Origin: Thermoplasmata archaeon
GTDB taxonomy: Archaea; Thermoplasmatota; Thermoplasmata; Lutacidiplasmatales; UBA184
Direction of reading: 5' to 3'
DNA: 64,000 nt
NCBI GenBank assembly: GCA_027315165.1
Contig: DAHUYN010000002.1
Location: 62,001-126,000, forward strand
In this document: one piece after another, positions 2,745-62,264 of the stretch
Position numbering within the stretch: position 1 is the first letter of the stretch
Layout: each line of letters opens with the position of its first letter
The notes under the pieces: generated by a model
The model's input: the letters and a program-made list of their open reading frames with translations, nothing else
The model's database searches: none
Told to the model about the DNA's origin: nothing
Translations under genes and position numbers: made by a program

Positions 2745-2899
2745 CGAAAATCGAGTTGTAAAGGCGGGAAGGGTCGGATAAAGCCTCGCGTCCCGCCTCG
2801 GGATCGTCGCGCCGCGCCCGAGGGACCCGGTCCGGCCGCGCCTCCTGGGGACGCAGGAAACGCCCTCCGGCGACCCGTTTCTCCGACCCCCTTCGGTCG

Positions 2900-2905
2900 C
2901 TTAAG
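2900..2905 (+). promoter_or_regulatory. TATA-like box of the PolB cassette
   Basis: CTTAAG, 31-36 bases before the ATG at 2936. It is the only clear promoter-like element before the RecA-like, small and polymerase genes, which follow with almost no spacing. Confidence 0.55.
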
Positions 2906-2935: not shown

Positions 2936-3790
2936 ATGGCAGCTCCTTCGACGACGGCGCTCCGCGTCGTGCCCGCGGTCCCCTCGGTCCCGCCGGCCTC
3001 GACGACCCTTCCGCCGCTCCCTCGGACCCCGCGCCCGAGCCGGACGGTGCGGCGCGCGACGGGCGCACCGCCGCTCGCCTTCCCGTCGTCGCCGGCGATC
3101 TATCCGTGGCTCTCGCGGCGGTTCTCCAGCGGCGAGGCGACGCTCTGGGTCGGCCCCGCGCGCGCGACGGAGGCGCTCCTCGAGCTCCTCTACGCGGGCG
3201 TCGTCGCGCGCGGCGGGCGGCTCTCCCTGCTCGAGGGCGCGAACCGGTTCCACCCGTACCGCATCGCCGAGCGGATGCGCGCGCTCGGTGTCGACCCGGA
3301 GACGGCGCTCGAGCGGATCCGGCTCGCCCGCGCCTTCACCGCGTATCAGATGGTCGCGCTCGTCGACCGTTGGGGACGCGAGGTCCGCGCCCACCCTCCC
3401 TCGCTGCTCGTCGCCCACGAGCTGCCGACGCTGTTCTTCGAGAGCGAGTTCCCGGAGGAGGAGCGCGCGCCGCTCCTCCGGTACACGGCCCGGTGCCTGG
3501 CCCGGATCGCCCGCGCGACCCGGACCCCGCTGCTCCTCACCTCCTCCTCGGGGCTCGCGGGATTCCCCGGGCTCGCCGAGGAGGGGCCGAGGCTGTTCGA
3601 CCTCGTGCGGCTGGCACAGGGGCCGGCCGGGCTCCGCCTCGAGGCCTACGGCGAGGCGACGACGATGCAGCTGCTGCACCGGCCCGACGGGCAGCGCGGG
3701 CTCGAGGAGTACGGCGGCGACCCCGCCGAGGGGGTGACGGCATGGGCCGGACGGTACCGACCTATCGGCAGGCGCTCGAGGAGCGGCTGA
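2936..3790 (+). CDS. RecA/RadB-superfamily protein lacking a Walker A motif
   Basis: 284 residues. The first 50 are a Pro/Ala-rich leader. From about 56 the protein follows a RecA-like core: a strand-turn where the P-loop should be (VGPARATEA, 72-80, with no GKT/S), then LLEGANRFHPYRIAERMRALG, then the RecA-typical RAFTAYQ (132-138), and a hydrophobic strand SLLVAHEL at the Walker B position. ATP binding is therefore probably lost. It heads a cluster with a small protein and a family B polymerase. Inactivated RecA-like proteins encoded beside divergent polymerases are known (bacterial ImuA; archaeal PolB2 neighbours), so a role as polymerase partner or filament adaptor is my inference. Confidence 0.65.
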   Translation: MAAPSTTALRVVPAVPSVPPASTTLPPLPRTPRPSRTVRRATGAPPLAFPSSPAIYPWLSRRFSSGEATLWVGPARATEALLELLYAGVVARGGRLSLLEGANRFHPYRIAERMRALGVDPETALERIRLARAFTAYQMVALVDRWGREVRAHPPSLLVAHELPTLFFESEFPEEERAPLLRYTARCLARIARATRTPLLLTSSSGLAGFPGLAEEGPRLFDLVRLAQGPAGLRLEAYGEATTMQLLHRPDGQRGLEEYGGDPAEGVTAWAGRYRPIGRRSRSG

Positions 3791-4017
3791 AGCGCTGGGA
3801 GGAGTTCGGCCGGCTCCTCACGACCCCCGAGGAGCGGGCCGCCTTCGAGACGATCCGCGCCGGGGCCCGCCGCTACGTCGCGCAGGCGACGTACGTGGGC
3901 AGCCCGGACCTGCTCGAGTCGCTCCTCCTCTCGGTCCTCCTCGACCTCGCCCGACGCGTCCCGGCGATACCGCCGTCGTCGGAGGGCCGCGGCGCGCCCT
4001 CCGAGGCTCCGACCTGA
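3742..4017 (+). CDS. Small MGRT-type protein between RecA-like and PolB genes (DUF8156-like)
   Basis: 91 residues, starting at an ATG inside the 3' end of the RecA-like gene (49-base overlap, different frame) and ending 13 bases before the polymerase. It opens MGRTVPTYRQALEERLKRWEEF and is almost wholly helical, with SPDLLESLLLSVLLDLARRV as a second helix. The opening and the late LLS-rich helix recall haloarchaeal proteins beginning MGRTNPTYR (DUF8156), which from memory I regard as homologous. No catalytic residues are visible. Its place in the operon suggests a structural partner of the polymerase or of the RecA-like protein. Confidence 0.6.
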   Translation: MGRTVPTYRQALEERLKRWEEFGRLLTTPEERAAFETIRAGARRYVAQATYVGSPDLLESLLLSVLLDLARRVPAIPPSSEGRGAPSEAPT

Positions 4018-4030
4018 CCGGCGCGCGCCG

Positions 4031-6343
4031 ATGGGGACCGGCTGGCTCCTCGACATCACCGACGCCCCCGACGGGCGCGGCGTCGTCCTCTGGCTCAAGG
4101 GGTCGGCCGACGAACGCGTGGCGCCCCGGGTCGAGCCGTATCTCCCGCCGTTCCTCGTCACGGGGCCGGCGCGCGCCCTCGGCGAGGCGCACGAGGCGCT
4201 CGCCGCGCGTCCGGAGGTCGCGCGCGTCGTGCCGAGGACCCGCCGCGTCTCGCTCCTCGACCCGAGGCCCCGCGCGTGCCTCGAGGTGACGGCGGCGCGG
4301 AACCCGGCGCGACGTCGGCTCGCCGACGTCGTCGATGCGATCGGGGGCTACCACGACCTCCAGCTCTACGACGTCGACCTTTCGGCGCCGCAGCTCTACC
4401 ACCTCGCCCACGGCCTCTACCCGTTCGCCCCCGTCGTCTGGGACGACCGCGGCGTCCGTGCGACGGAGCCGGCCGAGGCGATCGATTACGCGCCCCCGCC
4501 GCTCCGCGGCTCGGTCCTCGAGGTCCGCCTCCGGGGGCACACGCGCGGCCGCGTCGCGCCGAAGGAGGGGAGGGTGGCGGCGATCCGCCTCGGCGACACG
4601 ACGCTCGAAGGGGAGGACGAGGAGGCGCTCCTCGCGGCGTTCCACGAGGAGCTCTTGCGGCAGGACCCGGACCTTCTGTTCACCGACGGCGGCGACGCCT
4701 TCGACCTCCCCTGGCTCGCCCGGCGGGCCGCCGCCCTCGGTCTCCCTTCGTCCGGGTTCTACCTCGGGCGTTCCCCCGCGCCGATCGCCCCCGCGCGGCC
4801 CGCGCGGACGTTCGAGTCGTACGGCCGGGTGCTCCACCGGGACGCGGCGTTCCTGCTCCCCGGCCGGTTCCACCTGGACCGCGGGAACTCCTTCCTCTTC
4901 GGCGACGCGGCGGTCGACGGCCTCGTCGATGCCGCGCGGCTCTCGCGGCTGTCGCTGCAGACCGTCGTGCGGCAGTCGCCCGGGACCTGCTTCACGGCGA
5001 TGGAGATGGCCCACGCGCTCGCCGAGGGGTTCCACGTCCCGTTCAAGAAGAACCGGCCCGAGGAGTTCAAGTCGGCCCGGACGCTCGTCGCCGCCGACCG
5101 GGGCGGCGTGCTGTTCCTCCCGCCGGTCGGCGTCTTCGACACCGTCGACGAGTTCGATTTTGCGAGCCTCTACCCGCACCTCATGGTGCGGCACAACCTC
5201 TCGACGGAGACCCTGGACTGCCGCTGCTGCCCCGAGAGCCCCGACCGGGCCCCCGGGCTCGGCTACCGCTCGTGCACGCGCCGGGTCGGGCTGATCCCGA
5301 GGACCCTCGCCCCGCTCCTCGCGCGGCGGCTCGCCTACAAGGCCCGGGCGCGGGACCCGACGACGCCGCCGGCCGAGGCGGAGCGGCTCCGGCGGCGTGT
5401 GAAGATGCTCAAGTGGATCCTCGTCACCGCCTTCGGTTACCAGGGCTACCGCAACGCCCGCTTCGGCCGGATCGAGTGCCACGAGGCGATCAACGCGCAC
5501 GCCCGGGCCCTGATCGCGAGGCTCCTCCCCGTCGCCGAGGCCGCCGGCTACCGCGTCCTCCACGGGCTCGTCGACTCCCTGTGGCTCCGGCCCGAGGGCC
5601 CCGGGGCGGCGCCGGACGCGGAGCGGTTCGCCCGCGAGGTCTCCGAGCGCGTCGACCTCCCGCTCGGCTACGAGGGGCGGTACCGGTGGATCGTCTTCCT
5701 CCCGGCGGTGACCCACGGGCTCGGCGTCCCCAACCGCTACTACGGCCTCTACGAGAGCGGCGAGCTCAAGCTCCGCGGGATCGGGTCGCGACGCCACGAC
5801 ACCCCGACGGTCTTCCGCCGGTTCGAGGCAGAGCTCTTGGACCGGTTCGCGCGGGCGCGCGACGCCGAGGGCGTGCGGGCGGAGGTCCCGAAGGTCCTCG
5901 CGCGCGCCGACCTGTTCGCCGACCGGCTCCGCGCCGGCACGTGGCCGCGAGAGGAGCTCCTGGTCCGGCACCGCCTCTCCCAGCCCGGTGAGGCGTACGT
6001 CGTCTTCACCGAGTCCGTCGCGGCGGTGCGCCAGCTCGCCCACCTGGGGAGCGAGCGGGGGCCCGGGGAGTCGGTCCGCTTCCTCGTCGGCGACCGCAAG
6101 GCCCGTTCCTGGCGCGAGCGCGTGACGGTCGCCGAGGCGCTCGAGGGCGACGAGCCGTACGACGTCACGTGGTACCTCGAGGGGCTCGCGCGGGCCGCCG
6201 AGACGCTCTTGGCGCCCCTCGGCGTCACGCGGGCCTCCCTCCTCCGGCGCTGGGGCGTCGTCGAGCGGGCGCGACGCGCGCGGCCCGTCTCGCCGGAGTC
6301 GCTCGCGCAGCAGCGATTGGCCGGCGGGGTGGAACTCCTTTAG
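4031..6343 (+). CDS. Divergent family B DNA polymerase (PolB2-like)
   Basis: 770 residues, a normal length for archaeal PolB. Motif A is intact (DFASLYP, D376). Motif B is changed: KWILVTAFGYQGY in place of the usual KxxxNSxYGYxG. Motif C reads HGLVDSLW (D515) where active enzymes have YGDTDS, so the first Asp of DTD is lost while the second, which binds metal in RB69 polymerase, is kept. The exonuclease region has a weak Exo II (TDGGDAFDLPW) and no DxE Exo I, so proofreading is probably absent. These changes fit the archaeal PolB2 group rather than the replicative PolB. It is encoded with an inactive-looking RecA-like protein, suggesting a repair or mutagenic role rather than replication. 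Confidence 0.8.
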   Translation: MGTGWLLDITDAPDGRGVVLWLKGSADERVAPRVEPYLPPFLVTGPARALGEAHEALAARPEVARVVPRTRRVSLLDPRPRACLEVTAARNPARRRLADVVDAIGGYHDLQLYDVDLSAPQLYHLAHGLYPFAPVVWDDRGVRATEPAEAIDYAPPPLRGSVLEVRLRGHTRGRVAPKEGRVAAIRLGDTTLEGEDEEALLAAFHEELLRQDPDLLFTDGGDAFDLPWLARRAAALGLPSSGFYLGRSPAPIAPARPARTFESYGRVLHRDAAFLLPGRFHLDRGNSFLFGDAAVDGLVDAARLSRLSLQTVVRQSPGTCFTAMEMAHALAEGFHVPFKKNRPEEFKSARTLVAADRGGVLFLPPVGVFDTVDEFDFASLYPHLMVRHNLSTETLDCRCCPESPDRAPGLGYRSCTRRVGLIPRTLAPLLARRLAYKARARDPTTPPAEAERLRRRVKMLKWILVTAFGYQGYRNARFGRIECHEAINAHARALIARLLPVAEAAGYRVLHGLVDSLWLRPEGPGAAPDAERFAREVSERVDLPLGYEGRYRWIVFLPAVTHGLGVPNRYYGLYESGELKLRGIGSRRHDTPTVFRRFEAELLDRFARARDAEGVRAEVPKVLARADLFADRLRAGTWPREELLVRHRLSQPGEAYVVFTESVAAVRQLAHLGSERGPGESVRFLVGDRKARSWRERVTVAEALEGDEPYDVTWYLEGLARAAETLLAPLGVTRASLLRRWGVVERARRARPVSPESLAQQRLAGGVELL

Positions 6344-6367: not shown

Positions 6368-7855
6368 GTGGCATCGCGCCTGAAGCGCGGGAAGGGGGGC
6401 CACGAGCGGTTTCCCCGCGACGACCGGCCCGTCGCGGACCGGCTCGAGGAGATCCGGCGGCTCGCCGGAGACCCCAGCTCCGCCGACCCCGAGCGCTTCC
6501 TCGAGCTCCTCAACGACCGCGAGCCGGCGCTCCGGCAGGCGGCGGCGTGGGGGCTCGGGACCCTCAAGGACGTGCGCTTCCGCTCCGCCCTCGAGGCGTC
6601 GCTGCAGGACCCCGCGCCCGGCGTCCGCGCCGCCGCGGCCCAGGCGCTCGGCCTCCTTCGGCGGCCCGAGAGCCGGGAGGCGCTCGAGCGGGCGCTCGAC
6701 GACCCCGTCGCGACGGTCCGCTCGACCGCCGGCTGGTCGCTCTGGTCCGTCGGCTCCGTCGCCTCCGTCCCCGTCCTGCTCGCGCACGCTCGGGACCCCG
6801 AGCCGTCGGTCCGCCTCTGGATCGCCGCGGCGTTGGGGCAGTTCCGGACCGACGCGGGGTTCTCGAGGCTCCTCGAGTACCTCGAGGACGGCGACGACCG
6901 GGTCCGACGACAGGCGATCCTCAGCCTCGGCCAGTTCGACGACCCGCGGGTGCCGTCGCTCGTGCGCCCGTTCCTGGAGGACCCGGGACGCCGTGTGCGG
7001 ATCGCCACCTCCGTCGTCCTCGGCCGCGCGCGCGACGCGGCATCGGTCCCGGCCCTCCTGGCTCGGCTCGAGGTCGACGAGCCGTGGGTCCGCCCCTCGC
7101 TCCTCATCGCGCTCGGACGCATCGGCGACGCCTCGGCCGAGGCGGCCGTGGCGCCGTTCGCCGAGGACCGGGCCGCCTGGGTCCGCGTCTGCGCCGTGCG
7201 CTCGCTCGCCGAGATGCGGGCGCCGGGGGCCGCGGAGGTCCTCCGACGCCGGCTCACCGACCCCGCCTGGTCGGTCCGGGGCGCGGCGGCCGAGATGCTC
7301 GGGTTCGTCGGCGACGCGAGCGACCTGCCCGCGCTGCGCGAGAGGCTCGAGGACGTCCACCCGTGGCCGCGCCGCGGGGCGATCTACGCGCTCGCGAGGC
7401 TGGACCTCGCCGAGGCGGCGCCGAGGATCCGCGAGGAGCTCCGGCATCCCGTCCCCGAGGTCCGCCTCGCGGCCGTCTGGGCCCTGGGCCGGCTCCGTGA
7501 CGACGGGGCTCGAGAGGCGCTCGTGACGATGCTGCGCCAGCTCCACCCCTCGGTCTCGGAGAAGGAGGCGTTCGCCCAGGGTGACGGCGCGGTCCGGCTC
7601 GTGAGCGACGCGGCGACGCGCCTGTTCGACACGACGGTCCAGGCGATCGGCCGGCTGCGGCCGCAGGAGGGGGGCGACCTCCTCCTCGTCCGGGCGCTCG
7701 CCGAGAGTCGGGCGAACCTCTCCGAGGAGGAGGTCGACCGGCCCGCGCGGCTCCCGCCGGCCGAGGTGCCGGTCGGCCACACCCCTCCGACGCTGGGCCA
7801 GCTGTTCGAGGCGGCGCTCCCCGCGGGCTCGGACGAGGACGAGCTCGGATGCTGA
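6368..7855 (+). CDS. HEAT / PBS-lyase-type repeat protein
   Basis: 495 residues from a GTG start 24 bases after the polymerase stop. From about residue 50 to 430 it consists of helical repeats of roughly 31 residues with the HEAT pattern (for example DPAPGVRAAAAQALGLL, DPEPSVRLWIAAALGQF, HPVPEVRLAAVWALGRL), about a dozen in all. Such solenoids are protein-binding scaffolds. The C-terminal 60 residues are acidic. No lyase residues for phycobilin chemistry can be inferred and the PBS name is only the family label. Close spacing suggests cotranscription with the polymerase, but functional linkage is unproven. Confidence 0.8.
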   Translation: MASRLKRGKGGHERFPRDDRPVADRLEEIRRLAGDPSSADPERFLELLNDREPALRQAAAWGLGTLKDVRFRSALEASLQDPAPGVRAAAAQALGLLRRPESREALERALDDPVATVRSTAGWSLWSVGSVASVPVLLAHARDPEPSVRLWIAAALGQFRTDAGFSRLLEYLEDGDDRVRRQAILSLGQFDDPRVPSLVRPFLEDPGRRVRIATSVVLGRARDAASVPALLARLEVDEPWVRPSLLIALGRIGDASAEAAVAPFAEDRAAWVRVCAVRSLAEMRAPGAAEVLRRRLTDPAWSVRGAAAEMLGFVGDASDLPALRERLEDVHPWPRRGAIYALARLDLAEAAPRIREELRHPVPEVRLAAVWALGRLRDDGAREALVTMLRQLHPSVSEKEAFAQGDGAVRLVSDAATRLFDTTVQAIGRLRPQEGGDLLLVRALAESRANLSEEEVDRPARLPPAEVPVGHTPPTLGQLFEAALPAGSDEDELGC

Positions 7856-8784
7856 GGGGCATCCGGCGCTCCGACGTCCCCGGGTTCACCCGACTCCTCC
7901 TCGAGAACTTCCCGGAGGAGGGTCGGCTCCTGGGCTTCCGGCCCGAGCCGCTGGCCCGGGTGGTCTCGAAGCTGTTCCGCCCGGACCTGCGCTTCCTCCT
8001 CGGGCTCCTGCGGCTGTTGCGCCGGCCCGTCTTCGACCTGCTCATCGTCGAGGCCGAGAACACGGTGGCGGCGTCGGCGATCCTCACCTTCGGTCCGAAG
8101 TCGGGCTACATCAGCAGCGTTGTCACCGATCCCGCGTTCCGTCGTCGAGGCTACGCGACGCGGGTCGTGCGGGCCCTCGCCGAGCGCGCGGCGCGCGCGG
8201 GACGGCCGTACGTGGTCCTCGACGTCCTCGACGGGAACGCGCCGGCCCGGGCGCTCTACGCCCGGGAGGGCTACGCGACGCTTCGCCACGTTCGCTACTA
8301 CGCCGCGCCGGTCGCGACCCCGGCCGCGACGGGCGGGGCGACAGGGATCCGGCCGCTCCGCCGGCGCGACCTCGATCGGCTCGCCGAGCTCGCGAACGAC
8401 CTCCTGCCCCCGCCGGTCCGGGGGGTGCTCCCCGTGGGGCCGAACGACCTCGCGCTGTCGCCGCTCGTCAGCGTCGGCCTCAGCTCCGAGAGCGAGGCGT
8501 TCGTCCTCGACGACGGCCGCGGGCCCCGCGGGTTCGTCCGAGCGACGGTCGCCGAGACGATGGAGGCGGCCCACCTCACCCAGCCGATCCTCGCGGGCGA
8601 CGTGACCCCCGACGAGGCGCGCGCGCTCGTGACGACGGCCCTCTCGTGGCTGGCGTCGAAGGGGGCCTCTCGCGTCCTCGCCGAGGTGCCCGAGGCGAAC
8701 GCCGCCGGCGCCGCCGTGCTCACCGCCCTCGGGTTCTCGGAGGTCCTTGGCGTCGATACGCTCTACCGGTCGAGCGGCGCGTAG
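7849..8784 (+). CDS. GNAT-family N-acetyltransferase, tandem domains
   Basis: 311 residues, overlapping the HEAT gene by 7 bases. The N-terminal GNAT domain (1-150) has the acetyl-CoA loop: VVTDPAFRRRGYATRVV with RRRGYA at 98-103, followed by VVLDVLDGNAPARALYAREGY, the classical motif B. A second region (about 168-311) starts again with IRPLRRRDLDRLAELAN and ends ANAAGAAVLTALGFSEVLGVDTLY, so it is probably a second, degenerate GNAT domain without a clear R/QxxGxA loop. The acceptor is unknown. It is probably in the same transcript as the HEAT gene. Confidence 0.8.
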   Translation: MLRGIRRSDVPGFTRLLLENFPEEGRLLGFRPEPLARVVSKLFRPDLRFLLGLLRLLRRPVFDLLIVEAENTVAASAILTFGPKSGYISSVVTDPAFRRRGYATRVVRALAERAARAGRPYVVLDVLDGNAPARALYAREGYATLRHVRYYAAPVATPAATGGATGIRPLRRRDLDRLAELANDLLPPPVRGVLPVGPNDLALSPLVSVGLSSESEAFVLDDGRGPRGFVRATVAETMEAAHLTQPILAGDVTPDEARALVTTALSWLASKGASRVLAEVPEANAAGAAVLTALGFSEVLGVDTLYRSSGA

Positions 8785-10102
8785 CCGGCCCGACCGCGCC
8801 GTCCGCTCGCGCCTCCCCCTCGACGTCTATCTGTTCCCCGCCGCGGTCGGCGGAGGCCGGGGCGACATCGAGGAGGTCCTCACGGTCGGGCGCCGGCTCG
8901 CCGAGGCCGGCGTGTCCTTGTGGCTGTACCGGGCCCGCGGCCGCCCGCTGCCCCGGGGCGTCGACAAGACGTTCGCCGCGGTGCCGCTCCGGCGGGTGGC
9001 GAGGCTCCGACCCTCCGCAGCGCGCGCCCTCACCGTCTCCCCCCACTTCGGCACGACCGCCGAGTCGGCCCGCCCCGGGCCCCTCGGCCACGCCGGCGTC
9101 TGGGCCGAGGAGCGCGAGGAGGTCGAACGGGCCTACGGCCCCGGCGCGGTGCTGCACCTGAGCCTCGAGGAGTTCGCGCGGGCGCGGCCGCTCCGATGGC
9201 TCGCCGAGGAGCGGTGGCGCGAAGGAGGGTGGACCCGGTCGAGGATCGCGACCCGACGGAAAGGGCCCCAGGCCGGGCGGGAGCTCGCCGAGTTCCAGGC
9301 GCTCTACCGAAGGTTCCGCGCGCTGGACCGTGCCGACCTTCTCACGCTGTTCCCGGGGTTCCTCTACTCGAGGGCGTTCGCGAGCGAGTTCCCCGAGACG
9401 GTGCAGTGCGGCCCGATCGCCCCGTGGCCGCACCGGCCGCGGTATCGGGAGCCGGGGCCCGCGCGGCCGCTCGAGCTGCTCTGGTACGCGAGCCCGGCCT
9501 CCTCGGTCCGGATCGCCTCGAAGGTCCTGGCCGGGCTCGTCGCGACGGGCCGGCCCTCGCGGCTGACCCTTCGCACGCCCCGTCCGATGCCGCTGCGTCC
9601 GCCCCGAGGGGTCGAGGTCGTCGAGGTCCCGCTCTCGCCCTCGCGCGCGTGGGCCCGTCGATGGAGGACGCCACACGTCGTCCTCACGACCGGTTCCCGG
9701 TCGCTCCTCGAGGCGCTCTCGGTCGGGGCCCCGTTCCTCTACTTCAACGGCGTCCTCGGCCGTGGCGGCGCCCTCCGCCGACACCGGCCGGAGAAGCTCG
9801 ACGGGCTCCTGCGATGGCTCGCCCTCGAGCGCGTACCGGCCGTCGTGCGCCGCGACCTCAGCGACCTCGCGCGCGGGCGGCGCGTCGCCGAGGTCGTCGC
9901 GAGGGCCGTGACCGACGCGTCGTGGCGAGCGGCGTTCCCGCCCCGCCGCCCCGGCGCGGGCTACGCGCCCGGCTTCGAGGAGGGCGGGACCGTCGCGGTC
10001 GCGGTCGCGCGCGCCTTCGCCGAGCCGTCGACGACGCTCGCGCCGTTCCTCGCCGGTGTGCGGGCCGTCTCGCGCGCGCGGCCCGCCCGTTCGAAGGTTT
10101 AA
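8747..10102 (+). CDS. Predicted GT-B-like glycosyltransferase
   Basis: Up to 451 residues if it starts at the TTG at 8747, inside the GNAT gene; the true start may be slightly later. The body from LPLDVYLFPAAVGGGRGDIEEV onwards resembles a GT-B glycosyltransferase: a Gly-rich N-terminal strand-loop, an interdomain segment, and a C-terminal region SLLEALSVGAPFLYFNGVLGRGG followed by PEKLDGLLRWL, like the sugar-nucleotide-binding part of GT-B enzymes. No EX7E motif is obvious. Donor and acceptor are unknown. The family assignment rests on general pattern and is moderate. Confidence 0.5.
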   Translation: MASIRSTGRAARSRPDRAVRSRLPLDVYLFPAAVGGGRGDIEEVLTVGRRLAEAGVSLWLYRARGRPLPRGVDKTFAAVPLRRVARLRPSAARALTVSPHFGTTAESARPGPLGHAGVWAEEREEVERAYGPGAVLHLSLEEFARARPLRWLAEERWREGGWTRSRIATRRKGPQAGRELAEFQALYRRFRALDRADLLTLFPGFLYSRAFASEFPETVQCGPIAPWPHRPRYREPGPARPLELLWYASPASSVRIASKVLAGLVATGRPSRLTLRTPRPMPLRPPRGVEVVEVPLSPSRAWARRWRTPHVVLTTGSRSLLEALSVGAPFLYFNGVLGRGGALRRHRPEKLDGLLRWLALERVPAVVRRDLSDLARGRRVAEVVARAVTDASWRAAFPPRRPGAGYAPGFEEGGTVAVAVARAFAEPSTTLAPFLAGVRAVSRARPARSKV

Positions 10103-10103
10103 G
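10098..10103 (+). promoter_or_regulatory. TATA-like box
   Basis: TTTAAG, overlapping the stop of the preceding gene and 26-31 bases before the ATG at 10129. It fixes the start of the M29-like gene well inside a longer open frame. Confidence 0.6.
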
Positions 10104-10128
10104 AGCGGACCGCTCCTCTCGGCGACGG

Positions 10129-11241
10129 ATGGCCGAGGGCGAGGCCGCCGGCCCGGTCCAGCTCGCCCGGAGCCTGCTCGGCACCTCGCTCGACGTCCGC
10201 CGCGACGAGAATGTCGTCATCGAGACGTGGAACCACACGCTCCCCTACGCGACGGCGTGCGTCGTCGAGGCGCGGCGCCGGGGGGCGCACCCGATCCTCC
10301 TCCTCGAGGACGAGGCGGCGTACTGGCGGAGCATCGACCTCGCTCCGGGGATCGGCCGCTGGAGCCGAGTCGGCACGCACGAGTGGGCCGCGCTGGCCCG
10401 GTCGCGCGCCTACGTCTTCTTCCCGGGGCCGGCGGACATGCCGCGGTTCCGCTCGCTGCCCCAAGAGCCCCTCTCGCAGCTCTTGGCCTACAACGGCGAG
10501 TGGTACAAGCGGGCGCGCGCCGCGCGAGTCCGGGGCGTCCGGAGCGTGCTCGGCTACGCCTCGGAGCCGCAGGCGGAGGCGTGGGGCGTCTCGGCGGCGA
10601 CCTGGCGGCAGCAGCTCGTGCGGGCCGCCGTCGACGCCGACGCGGCCGAGGTCCGCCAGAACGCCGCCCGGGTCGCCCGAGCGCTCGGGAAGGGCCACAC
10701 GCTGCGCGTGACGGGGTCGAACGGCTCGGACCTCACGGTGCGCCTCCGCGGCCGGGCCCCGACCGTCGACGACGGCGTCATCTCGGCCGAGGACCTCCGC
10801 TCGGGCCACAACCTCACGGTGTCGCCGCCCGGCTCCGTCGCGGTCGCGATCGACGAGCGGAGCGCCGAGGGGACGTTCATCGCGAGCCGCCCCTCGTTCC
10901 TGAACTTCGGTCGTCTCGAGGGGGGCCAGTGGGAGGCGCGGCAGGGCCGCCTCGTCAACACCTGGTTCACCGACGGCCAGCCGGCGTTCGACGAGCGGTA
11001 CGCGGCGGCGCCGAAGGGCAAGGACGTCGTCTCCGTCGTCTCGATCGGCCTCAACGCCGCGCTCGAGGCCGGCGTCCCGAGGGTCGAGGACCAGGAGCTC
11101 GGCTGCGTCACCGTCGGGGTCGGCGGGAACGTCGGCTACGGCGGCACGAATCGGAGCGCCTTCCACGCCTGGCTCGTCCTCGGCGAGGCATCCGTCGCCG
11201 TCGACGGCGCCCCCCTCGTCGACCGCGGACACATCCTGTAG
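10129..11241 (+). CDS. M29-like (aminopeptidase T) family protein with altered metal site
   Basis: 370 residues. The order of segments follows thermophilic M29 aminopeptidases: an N-terminal Rossmann-like half (ENVVIETWNHTLPYATACVVEARRRG) and a C-terminal half with VTGSNGSDLTVRLRGR, SPPGSVAVAIDERSAEGTF and DQELGCVTVGVGGN. In active enzymes the GEVF-like loop supplies a metal-binding Glu; here it reads GSVA. The final HxD pair is also not visible. The protein may therefore be inactive or use another metal set. The start is set by the upstream TATA box, and the DNA glycosylase gene follows 7 bases later. Confidence 0.6.
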   Translation: MAEGEAAGPVQLARSLLGTSLDVRRDENVVIETWNHTLPYATACVVEARRRGAHPILLLEDEAAYWRSIDLAPGIGRWSRVGTHEWAALARSRAYVFFPGPADMPRFRSLPQEPLSQLLAYNGEWYKRARAARVRGVRSVLGYASEPQAEAWGVSAATWRQQLVRAAVDADAAEVRQNAARVARALGKGHTLRVTGSNGSDLTVRLRGRAPTVDDGVISAEDLRSGHNLTVSPPGSVAVAIDERSAEGTFIASRPSFLNFGRLEGGQWEARQGRLVNTWFTDGQPAFDERYAAAPKGKDVVSVVSIGLNAALEAGVPRVEDQELGCVTVGVGGNVGYGGTNRSAFHAWLVLGEASVAVDGAPLVDRGHIL

Positions 11242-11248
11242 CGGCGCC

Positions 11249-11827
11249 GTGGTCGCGACCTCCGACCCCGGGGCGTCGGGGCCTCTCCCGAGGGCGTTCT
11301 ACGACCGGCCGACGCGGGTCGTGGCCCGCGCCCTCCTCGGGTGCCGGTTCCTCCACGAGACGGAGGCGGGCGGGCTCGTCGGCCGGATCGTCGAGACCGA
11401 GGCGTACGTCGCGCGCGACCCGGCGAACCATGCGTTCGGGGGGCCGACCGAGCGGAACCGCTCGATGTTCGCGGCGCCCGGGACCCTCTATGTCTACCGG
11501 ATCCACCAGGTGCACTGCGCCAACGCCGTCACCCGGCCGGGGGAGGCGGTCCTCCTCCGCGCGGCCGAGCCGCTCTCGGGCGGGCTCGGGAACGCGAGCG
11601 GACCCGGGCGACTCTGCCGGGCCTTCGGTCTCACGCGGCGCGACGACGGGCTCGACCTCACCGCCGACGAGGTCCGGATCCTCGCGCGCGACCGGCCCCT
11701 CGGGGGCCGGGTCCTCGTCGGACCTCGCGTCGGGATCTCCAAGGCGGTCGAGGCGCCGCTTCGCTACGCGATCGCGGAGAACCGGTATGTCTCGTCGCCG
11801 CGACCCCGAGGCCGGCGTGACGCCTAG
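11249..11827 (+). CDS. DNA-3-methyladenine glycosylase (AAG/MPG type)
   Basis: 192 residues from a GTG, close to the 190-200 usual for bacterial and archaeal Aag. It removes alkylated or deaminated purines from DNA to start base excision repair. Diagnostic segments are FYDRPTRVVARALLGC near the N-terminus, the catalytic-site signature RIVETEAYV (46-54), NHAFGGPTERNRSMF, and GTLYVYRIHQVHCANAV, the substrate-pocket strand. It ends GVRDxxx-like with GPRVGISKAVEAPLRYAI. It follows the M29-like gene by 7 bases and faces the L37e gene tail to tail. Confidence 0.88.
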   Translation: MVATSDPGASGPLPRAFYDRPTRVVARALLGCRFLHETEAGGLVGRIVETEAYVARDPANHAFGGPTERNRSMFAAPGTLYVYRIHQVHCANAVTRPGEAVLLRAAEPLSGGLGNASGPGRLCRAFGLTRRDDGLDLTADEVRILARDRPLGGRVLVGPRVGISKAVEAPLRYAIAENRYVSSPRPRGRRDA

Positions 11828-27204: not shown

Positions 27205-28394
27205 CGGGCCTCCTTGCGGACCCGCTCGGCGAACCGGTCGAAGACGAAACCGGCCTCCTGCGGGCCCGGATGGCCCTCGGGGTGGCCTTGGAGCGCGAGC
27301 GTGCGGCCGCGCGTGTCCCGGAGCCCCTCGAGGGTCCCGTCGTCCGGGTTCGAGGCCCAGGCGGCGAGCCCGCTCCCCTTGAGGGAGGTCGGGTCCACGG
27401 CGTAGCCGTGGTTCTCGCTCACGATCAGCGCGCGCCCGTCCGGGAAGCAGACGGTCTTGTTCTGCCCCCGGTGGCCGTACTTGAGCTTGAACGTCCGCCC
27501 GCCGCGCGAGAGGGCCAAGAGCTGGTGACCGAGGCAGATCCCGAGCGTCGGCAGCGCGCGCGTCGACGGCCGCGCGAGCTCCTCGATCGTCGAGGCGAGC
27601 TGGGCCGGGTCCCCGGGGCCGTTCCCGACGAGCAGCCCCGAGACCGTGCGGCCCTCGAACGAGGTCGGGACCTCGTGGTCGTACGGCAGTCGGAGGACCG
27701 AGAGCTTCCTCTCGAGGAGCGCGCGGACGATGCTCGCCTTGATGCCTCCGTCCAGGAGCGCGACGAGCGGCCCTCGCTCCGCCTCATACAGGACGGGGCG
27801 CGTCACCGAGACCTCGGAGACGAGCGGCTCGTCCCCGTATCGGGGCGCCGCCTCGAGGCGGCGCTGCAGGACCTCGTCGGAGGGGCGCCGGTCGGCGGGG
27901 CCGACGTGGACGAGGCCCCGAAGGACGCCGACCTCGCGCAGGTGCTCGGTGAGGCGCCTCGTGTCGACGCCCGCGACGCCCGGGACCCCTTCGTCGGCGA
28001 GCCAATCCTCGAGCCGACGCGCGCTGGCCCAGTGGTTCGGCCGCGTGAGCCCGCGCACGATCATCGCCCGGACCTGGACCCCGGAGGACTCGACGTATCG
28101 GGGGAGTCCGAAGGCGTCCTTCGCGTCGACCGCGGGGACGCCGTAGTTCCCCAAGAGCGGGTAGGTGAACGTGAGGATCTGCCCGCGGTAGGAGGGGTCG
28201 GTGAGCGACTCGGGGTAGCCGACCATGCCCGTCGTGAAGACGACCTCGCCGACGCGCTCGGTCGCCGCGCCGAACCCGACGCCCTCGAACCGCGTGCCGT
28301 CCTCGAGAAATAGAGTCCCCCCGAGCACGGACCTGGGCGCGTCCGGTCGCACGGGCGTAGGAACCCAACGCGTCCGAGGAAACGCTTCGGCCAT
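27201..28394 (-). CDS. carA: Carbamoyl-phosphate synthase small (glutaminase) subunit
   Basis: 397 residues from the ATG at 28394. A TATA-like CTTATG overlaps this ATG, so the GTG 14 codons later is a possible leaderless start. The N-terminal domain begins GGTLFLEDGTRFEGVGFG and shows GEVVFTTGMVGYPESLTDPSY. The class I glutamine amidotransferase domain has the nucleophile in LGICLGHQ and the His/Glu pair in LQGHPEGHPGP. It supplies ammonia to CarB through an internal channel. Confidence 0.95.
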   Translation of the reverse strand: MAEAFPRTRWVPTPVRPDAPRSVLGGTLFLEDGTRFEGVGFGAATERVGEVVFTTGMVGYPESLTDPSYRGQILTFTYPLLGNYGVPAVDAKDAFGLPRYVESSGVQVRAMIVRGLTRPNHWASARRLEDWLADEGVPGVAGVDTRRLTEHLREVGVLRGLVHVGPADRRPSDEVLQRRLEAAPRYGDEPLVSEVSVTRPVLYEAERGPLVALLDGGIKASIVRALLERKLSVLRLPYDHEVPTSFEGRTVSGLLVGNGPGDPAQLASTIEELARPSTRALPTLGICLGHQLLALSRGGRTFKLKYGHRGQNKTVCFPDGRALIVSENHGYAVDPTSLKGSGLAAWASNPDDGTLEGLRDTRGRTLALQGHPEGHPGPQEAGFVFDRFAERVRKEAR

Positions 28395-28479
28395 AAGCGT
28401 TGCGTTCGGCGGTCGACGCGAGAGGCCGTCTTCGTAGGCACGACGGCCCCGGAGGCGCCGCGCGCTCCACCAAGAACCC

Positions 28480-61976: not shown

Positions 61977-62264
61977 CTACGCCTTGACCTTGTCGGCCTT
62001 CTTTTCGAAGTCCTGGAGCGCGTCGCCGTAGAGGTCCGCGAGGTCCTTGAGGACCCGCTTGAGGACCTGCTGCGGCTTCTCGCCCTTGGTCTTGAGGTAG
62101 AGGGACGGGCGATCGAGGAACGGGTGGCCCAGGTAGTAGCGGGCCTCGACGACCTTCTCCTCGGCCTGGAGCGCCTCGACGAGGGGGATCAGGATCGTCT
62201 CCTCGCCCTTCGGCAGCTCGATCCGCAGGGTGTCGTGTTCCTTCTCGGCGACGTGGATCTCCAT
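61977..62264 (-). CDS. rpoL: DNA-directed RNA polymerase subunit L (Rpo11)
   Basis: 95 residues from the ATG at 62264; a longer frame to 62321 has a non-native front. The sequence MEIHVAEKEHDTLRIELPKGEE, then TILIPLVEALQAEEKVVEARYYLGHPFLDRP and the C-terminal helix LKRVLKDLADLYGDALQDFEKK match Rpb11/RpoL. It dimerises with subunit D (Rpo3) at the platform of the enzyme. A CTTAAG box lies 32-37 bases upstream. It is cotranscribed with kptA. Confidence 0.92.
   Translation of the reverse strand: MEIHVAEKEHDTLRIELPKGEETILIPLVEALQAEEKVVEARYYLGHPFLDRPSLYLKTKGEKPQQVLKRVLKDLADLYGDALQDFEKKADKVKA

Follow-up and report, generated by a model that had tools for sequence, protein, structure and literature searches.

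A PolB2 mutasome in a Lutacidiplasmatales archaeon and a promoter repeat common to the mutasome, a ribonucleotide reductase and a structured RNA

What is made by three tightly packed genes for a RecA-like protein without a P-loop, a small helical protein and a family B polymerase with altered motifs, and what switches them on? The question is raised by positions 2936–6343 (forward strand) of a 64,000-nucleotide (nt) stretch of DNA, hereafter the window, which comprises positions 62,001–126,000 of contig DAHUYN010000002.1 (assembly GCA_027315165.1) of a Thermoplasmata archaeon of the Lutacidiplasmatales. The trio is almost certainly a PolB2 mutasome (iRadA-PPB2-PolB2), in which iRadA and a PPB2 trimer would clamp onto PolB2 to give a translesion polymerase that may extend mispaired ends past DNA damage. 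Since this mutasome is already in print, the trio itself is not novel and adds members to a published system; the new part of the finding is the promoter element, an inverted repeat that, as sequence comparison supports well, is common to three unrelated promoters in this genus, those of the mutasome, of a class II ribonucleotide reductase (RNR) and of an unannotated structured RNA. The best explanation as a whole, to which a probability of about 0.8 is given, is a PolB2 mutasome together with one repeat-reading regulator over the three promoters.

The trio and its three proteins

In the published system, iRadA, PPB2 and PolB2, the order of their genes, the MGRT arm and the missing aspartate (Asp) of the polymerase have all been described, and the AlphaFold model of the complex combines three PPB2 with a single PolB2 and a single iRadA, the MGRT arm being inserted between PolB2 and iRadA (PMC11791011). 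The operon was noted in 2014 (PMC4104785), and activity of the Sulfolobales PolB2 and damage induction of its operon are reported as cited in PMC11791011; a full-text search for the PPB2/iRadA/PolB2 system returned nothing beyond that paper. The window's trio resembles the published mutasome (the Dpo2 operon of Sulfolobales) in gene order, MGRT arm, inactive RadA, replaced motif C Asp and conserved Asp of the D(K/R) loop, and differs from it in a 49-nt overlap of the iRadA and PPB2 frames, in exo II and exo III Asp residues that are often kept, in a genome in which no lexA was found, and in the promoter repeat common to RNR and RNA, which goes unmentioned in the parts of PMC11791011 that were consulted. 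The archaeal translesion or mutagenesis unit with a small bridging protein that the sequence-only reading had proposed agrees with this mutasome, MGRT arm included, and complex assembly, translesion activity and damage induction would be expected here by analogy with the literature on relatives.

Bacterial ImuA-ImuB-DnaE2, which is under LexA control, brings together a RecA-like protein, an accessory protein and an error-prone polymerase in a damage regulon. The same combination, also known from bacterial Pol V (PMC11791011), is what the window's trio has in common with these systems, and the mutasome resemblance that had been noted stands as regards a RecA-like protein beside a divergent polymerase; membership in ImuA-ImuB-DnaE2 is ruled out, because the polymerase belongs to family B, not Y or C, and the trio is of the PolB2 system instead. 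LexA was not found, which is a further difference from the bacterial systems.

The conservation of the trio was assessed in the 79 best named loci (L033–L111), 72 of which were testable. The three genes are contiguous in 61 of the 72, 56 by the gap rule and five with a 67-nt overlap of PPB2 and PolB2, and so occur together across relatives as the proposal of a unit had implied; two further loci have gaps of about 100 nt and three have inserts of 0.7–3.4 kb. In 54 of the 66 loci where this was measured, iRadA and PPB2 share exactly 49 nt, as they do in the window, where PolB2 starts 13 nt past the PPB2 stop. Of the 37 genus genomes, the window's own among them, 32 have a close PolB2, and the five without one are 57–80% complete; beyond the genus, 8 of 24 genomes from the class or order have one. 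The named loci and the genome set overlap (e.g. L034 and L004) and are therefore not independent, and the relatives share descent. The assembly is 2.04 Mb in size and 94% complete, the GC content of the window is 72.6%, and a GC content of about 69% with a genome of about 2.1 Mb is given for the genus Lutacidiplasma (PMC9287336), of which Candidatus Lutacidiplasma silvani is among the named matches (locus L072). Chance reading frames in such DNA are ruled out by the conservation of the genes in relatives, which confirms the three packed frames.

The inserts mentioned above lie between PPB2 and PolB2, at L078:2550-6001 (3.4 kb, with likely membrane proteins among its open reading frames, ORFs), L092:4352-6001 (1.6 kb) and L111:5256-6001 (0.7 kb). 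L056, L087 and L098 have a PolB2 without detectable iRadA or PPB2 in the flank.

The initial characterisation of the three products was borne out. The first protein matches Pfam Rad51 weakly by sequence (E 3.7e-4, under the family cut-off), as it does RadA in the PDB (E 3.3e-5), and its predicted fold (pLDDT 84.6) matches RadA, Dmc1 and Rad51 chains with E about 2e-11. None of the 69 iRadA rows (that of the window and those of 68 relatives) contains the Walker A motif [GA]xxxxGK[ST], every one of them has H, S, G or A in place of the Walker B Asp, and a separate RadA of the same genome has the Walker A motif; judged by these motifs, protein 1 is an inactive RadA, its ATPase motifs having been lost. 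In the distant relative L110 (5144-5758), the C-terminus of iRadA, NQTTLDEYW, looks like a full PCNA-binding box.

PPB2, for which neither Pfam nor NCBIfam gave a match, has three helices in its predicted structure (pLDDT 82.9), and M-G-R-T-x-P-T-Y is found in 32 of 32 rows, from 31 hand-picked loci and the window. A fold search produced no PDB match at E <= 0.001; the N-terminal domain of SigE came at rank 15 with E 5.2, so the published likeness of PPB2 to sigma factors was not reproduced.

PolB2 matches the Pfam family B polymerase (E 5.9e-15), and the first Asp of motif C is replaced by I or L in all 77 rows compared. In the D(K/R) motif, the partner of the PPB2 arm, Asp283 is present in 77 and Arg284 in 55 of the 77, and the exo I Asp is replaced in 73 and kept in 4, yet the exo II and exo III Asp are mostly kept. 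The proofreading domain of known PolB2 mutasomes has no active site, and here a loss of proofreading is likely. The C-tail (window about 6290-6340) carries E-x(2,4)-Q-x-x-[LF] in 56 rows, compared with at most 8 in shuffles, and is possibly a weak, putative PCNA-binding motif; a fraction of known mutasomes have a clamp-binding motif in iRadA or PolB2. A second PolB of the genome has an intact motif C, YSDTDS, and is about 30% identical to PolB2; because of its presence PolB2 is not the sole, replicative-type enzyme, and the idea that the polymerase of the trio might align as the replicative PolB of the species is ruled out.

One repeat at three promoters

Upstream of iRadA, the order is the inverted repeat GAAACG-N13-CGTTTC, the box CTTAAG, which begins after 18 bp and is probably a TATA box, and the start codon ATG. 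The repeat (at most two mismatches, with at most one per half in the mutasome and RNR counts) precedes 58 of 67 relatives' mutasomes, 67 being the named loci with enough upstream sequence; 21 copies are exact, and the spacer is 13–15 nt in 51. Among control windows, 146 of about 2000 (about 7%) had the repeat, two of them exactly, a rate that is slightly low, as draws near the promoter were skipped yet counted; a number of the 58 could be fortuitous. In the window's own genome, GAAACGN{10,16}CGTTTC occurs once, at the mutasome promoter, and GAAACRN{12,17}YGTTTC twice, the other site ending 100 bp upstream of the gene of a class II, B12-dependent RNR. The repeat is found at 28 of 30 RNR loci of the genus (9 exact, 13 with one mismatch and 6 with two; spacer 15 in 27), compared with 239 of 3000 control windows, which include the promoters themselves. 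The 37 genus genomes contain 63 near-exact GAAACRN{12,17}YGTTTC sites and 6 matches to the reversed pattern; in 24 genomes from outside the genus the excess over the control is small (67 vs 47 sites).

A third target came from a site profile, made from 36 hand-picked mutasome and RNR sites (both own-genome ones included) and run on 9 genomes, which found a third own-genome site (E 0.013) that was absent from the training sites; the mutasome site of the window, as a training site a match by construction, obtained E 0.135 in the same search. The third site has on one side the gene of an HxlR-type regulator (Pfam E 1.8e-22) and on the other a structured element, an RNA of about 100 nt, in favour of which the left-hand ORF of L142 was dropped as the target. 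A covariance model built from 4 of 20 loci and run on 28 of the 37 genus genomes detected the RNA, in a single copy each, in 20 of the 28 and in none of 18 others. With at most two mismatches per half, the repeat lies 41–45 nt before the RNA in 19 of the 20 loci, including 15 of the 16 not used for the model, and in 20 of 20 at <=3 mismatches; the HxlR motif is upstream of the RNA in 18, one of the misses having only 273 nt of upstream sequence. In an alignment of 19 sequences (L233 was left out, having the same RNA as L232), the RNA has a long covarying stem with two-sided changes in 16 of 18 pairs, 94.4% of cells pair, and the covariation score is 0.506 compared with a shuffle mean of 0.197, none of 500 shuffles reaching 0.506. 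Rfam gave no match at the RNA element in 10 loci, and one far-below-threshold match elsewhere in L236. An ORF downstream of the RNA, which may be free-standing or a leader, is common to 12 of the 20 loci at a variable distance.

The distance to the probable TATA box is also shared, since the AT peak comes 20–22 nt (counted from 0) past the repeat at the mutasome (n=58) and RNR (n=28) and 22–26 nt past it in the RNA promoters (n=17). Three unrelated units with one element at one TATA-like distance point to a common regulator, not to descent, and, because relatives share descent, this sharing among three promoters is a stronger argument than the counts across relatives. The position of the repeat upstream of the TATA box suggests that the regulator is an activator. 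The repeat common to mutasome and RNR is thereby a concrete operator candidate, and the third target is an RNA family supported by covariation; a literature search of partial coverage recognised no paper on this repeat or RNA.

Some further sites were seen. G058, of the same class, has 16 sites vs 3 reversed, well over the other non-genus genomes, and the window contains a one-mismatch site, GAAACG-N13-CGTTGC, at 28379-28403. In G013:C15:26564 (L128) and G019:C146:3485 (L189), a VOC/glyoxalase-family gene, possibly a further target, has the repeat within it or close to its start, and ABC-type ATPase genes recur at sites L136 and L188; both kinds were left uncounted because the repeat there is often in coding sequence.

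Candidate regulators and alternative readings

One regulator would bind the repeat upstream of the TFB-recognition element (BRE) and TATA box, in the activator-like position that the promoter anatomy indicates, and, when DNA is damaged or replication is stressed, would jointly turn on error-prone synthesis, deoxynucleoside triphosphate (dNTP) supply and the RNA. The favoured candidate for this role is the winged-helix protein of the HxlR type whose gene neighbours the operator of the RNA. In the fullest form of this proposal, which is advanced tentatively and at slightly below even odds, soil archaea of the Lutacidiplasmatales type would have an SOS-like regulon without LexA, in which the HxlR-type regulator recognises GAAACG-N13..15-CGTTTC some 20 bp ahead of the TATA box and induces three targets together, namely the PolB2 mutasome, the class II RNR and the new family of structured RNA of about 100 nt. 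To our knowledge, no switch for error-prone synthesis has been described in archaea outside Sulfolobales; if true, the proposal would provide an archaeal counterpart of SOS in which mutagenesis is coupled with the supply of dNTPs and with an RNA effector.

Several observations weigh against the best explanation as a whole. The HxlR protein is linked to the repeat by adjacency only, and is preferred solely for the operator next to its gene. The repeat is missing from 9 of 67 mutasome and 2 of 30 RNR promoters. Of the 63 genus sites, 49 were placed, and the three promoters account for 26 of these: 12 belong to mutasomes (one of them, G005:C102, judged by its sequence alone), 11 to RNR genes and 3 to the RNA. 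The other 23, whose loci were compared with one another, have different locations, often within coding sequence or next to it. As to the mutasome, iRadA was undetected nearby in 6 of the 72 testable loci, PPB2 also being undetected in 3 of these, and the aligned exo II Asp is kept in 62 and the exo III Asp in 70 of the 77 PolB2 rows, so the exonuclease is not plainly dead.

Control by LexA or NrdR is rejected, as neither was found in the genome: the models TIGR00498 (LexA) and TIGR00244 (NrdR) had no match in the 94% complete assembly and matched in control genomes. An Orc-type regulator stays a rival because in Sulfolobus islandicus Orc1-2 drives damage genes, Dpo2 among them, and binds ANTTTC (PMC9738581); the mutasome would then be real and the repeat read by an Orc1/Cdc6-type protein rather than by HxlR. 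The genome has two Orc1/Cdc6-like genes, the surroundings of archaeal polB2 are enriched in orc1/cdc6 genes (PMC11791011), the half site of the repeat also ends in GTTTC, and the Sulfolobales element is likewise a promoter element of PolB2 (Dpo2) with a TTTC core (PMC9738581). However, the element of the window is a wide inverted repeat with GAAACG and CGTTTC halves, rather than a single hexamer, none of the repeat sites inspected has an orc gene next to it, and no repeat (at most two mismatches) occurs in the 5-kb region of either orc gene, which leaves no sign of orc autoregulation and led to the rejection of autoregulated orc genes. Reading of the repeat by an Orc-type protein is rather unlikely.

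The repeat could also be a general promoter element linked to growth or replication, for example to S-phase or dNTP control, the mutasome then being expressed along with DNA synthesis and not specifically in response to damage. RNR is a replication enzyme, and the element is common to 28 of its 30 promoters; on the other side, damage induces the PolB2 operons of Sulfolobales (as cited in PMC11791011) and UV induces the class II nrdJ of Halobacterium (PMC2556686, PMC1224876), and we would not expect this alternative to hold. The Halobacterium element TTTCACTTTCA, which marks the UV-B genes radA1, vng17, top6B and vng280, not nrdJ (PMC2556686), is like the present repeat in its TTTCA units and in its position upstream of the TATA box, in an organism in which nrdJ is UV-induced, and unlike it in being direct, not inverted, and without a link to PolB2 in the passages of PMC2556686 that were consulted. 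That PolB2 is catalytically dead, with a structural or regulatory role only, is very improbable, since, although the first motif C Asp is missing throughout and the enzyme was read as inactivated in 2014 (PMC4104785), all 77 rows retain Asp376 (motif A), Lys461 and Asp515 and the Sulfolobus PolB2, likewise without the first Asp, is reported to be active (PMC11791011).

Feature coordinates and neighbouring genes

Table 1. Features of the mutasome locus (window positions) and of the two other repeat sites of the genome (contig positions).
Feature	Position	Strand	Remarks
Inverted repeat GAAACG-N13-CGTTTC, candidate operator	2857..2881	.	recurs upstream of relatives' mutasomes
CTTAAG, TATA-like box	2900..2905	+	AT peak after the repeat; probable TATA box
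iRadA, RadA/Rad51-fold protein with lost Walker motifs	2936..3790	+	284 aa
PPB2 (arCOG07300-like), MGRT N-terminus, three helices	3742..4017	+	91 aa; first 49 nt overlap iRadA
PolB2, family B polymerase, first Asp of motif C replaced	4031..6343	+	770 aa
Repeat upstream of class II RNR gene	C22:31122-31148		
Repeat between HxlR-type gene and structured RNA	C55:51964-51991		
Unannotated structured RNA, about 100 nt	G000:C55:51826-51923 = L229:1501-1598	-	relatives L225–L244

After the trio, at 6368-11827, the window has genes for HEAT repeats, a GNAT protein, a product of no assigned function and a 3-methyladenine DNA glycosylase. Of the 79 named loci, many of them truncated, 45 have HEAT, 42 GNAT and 26 the glycosylase downstream of the trio.

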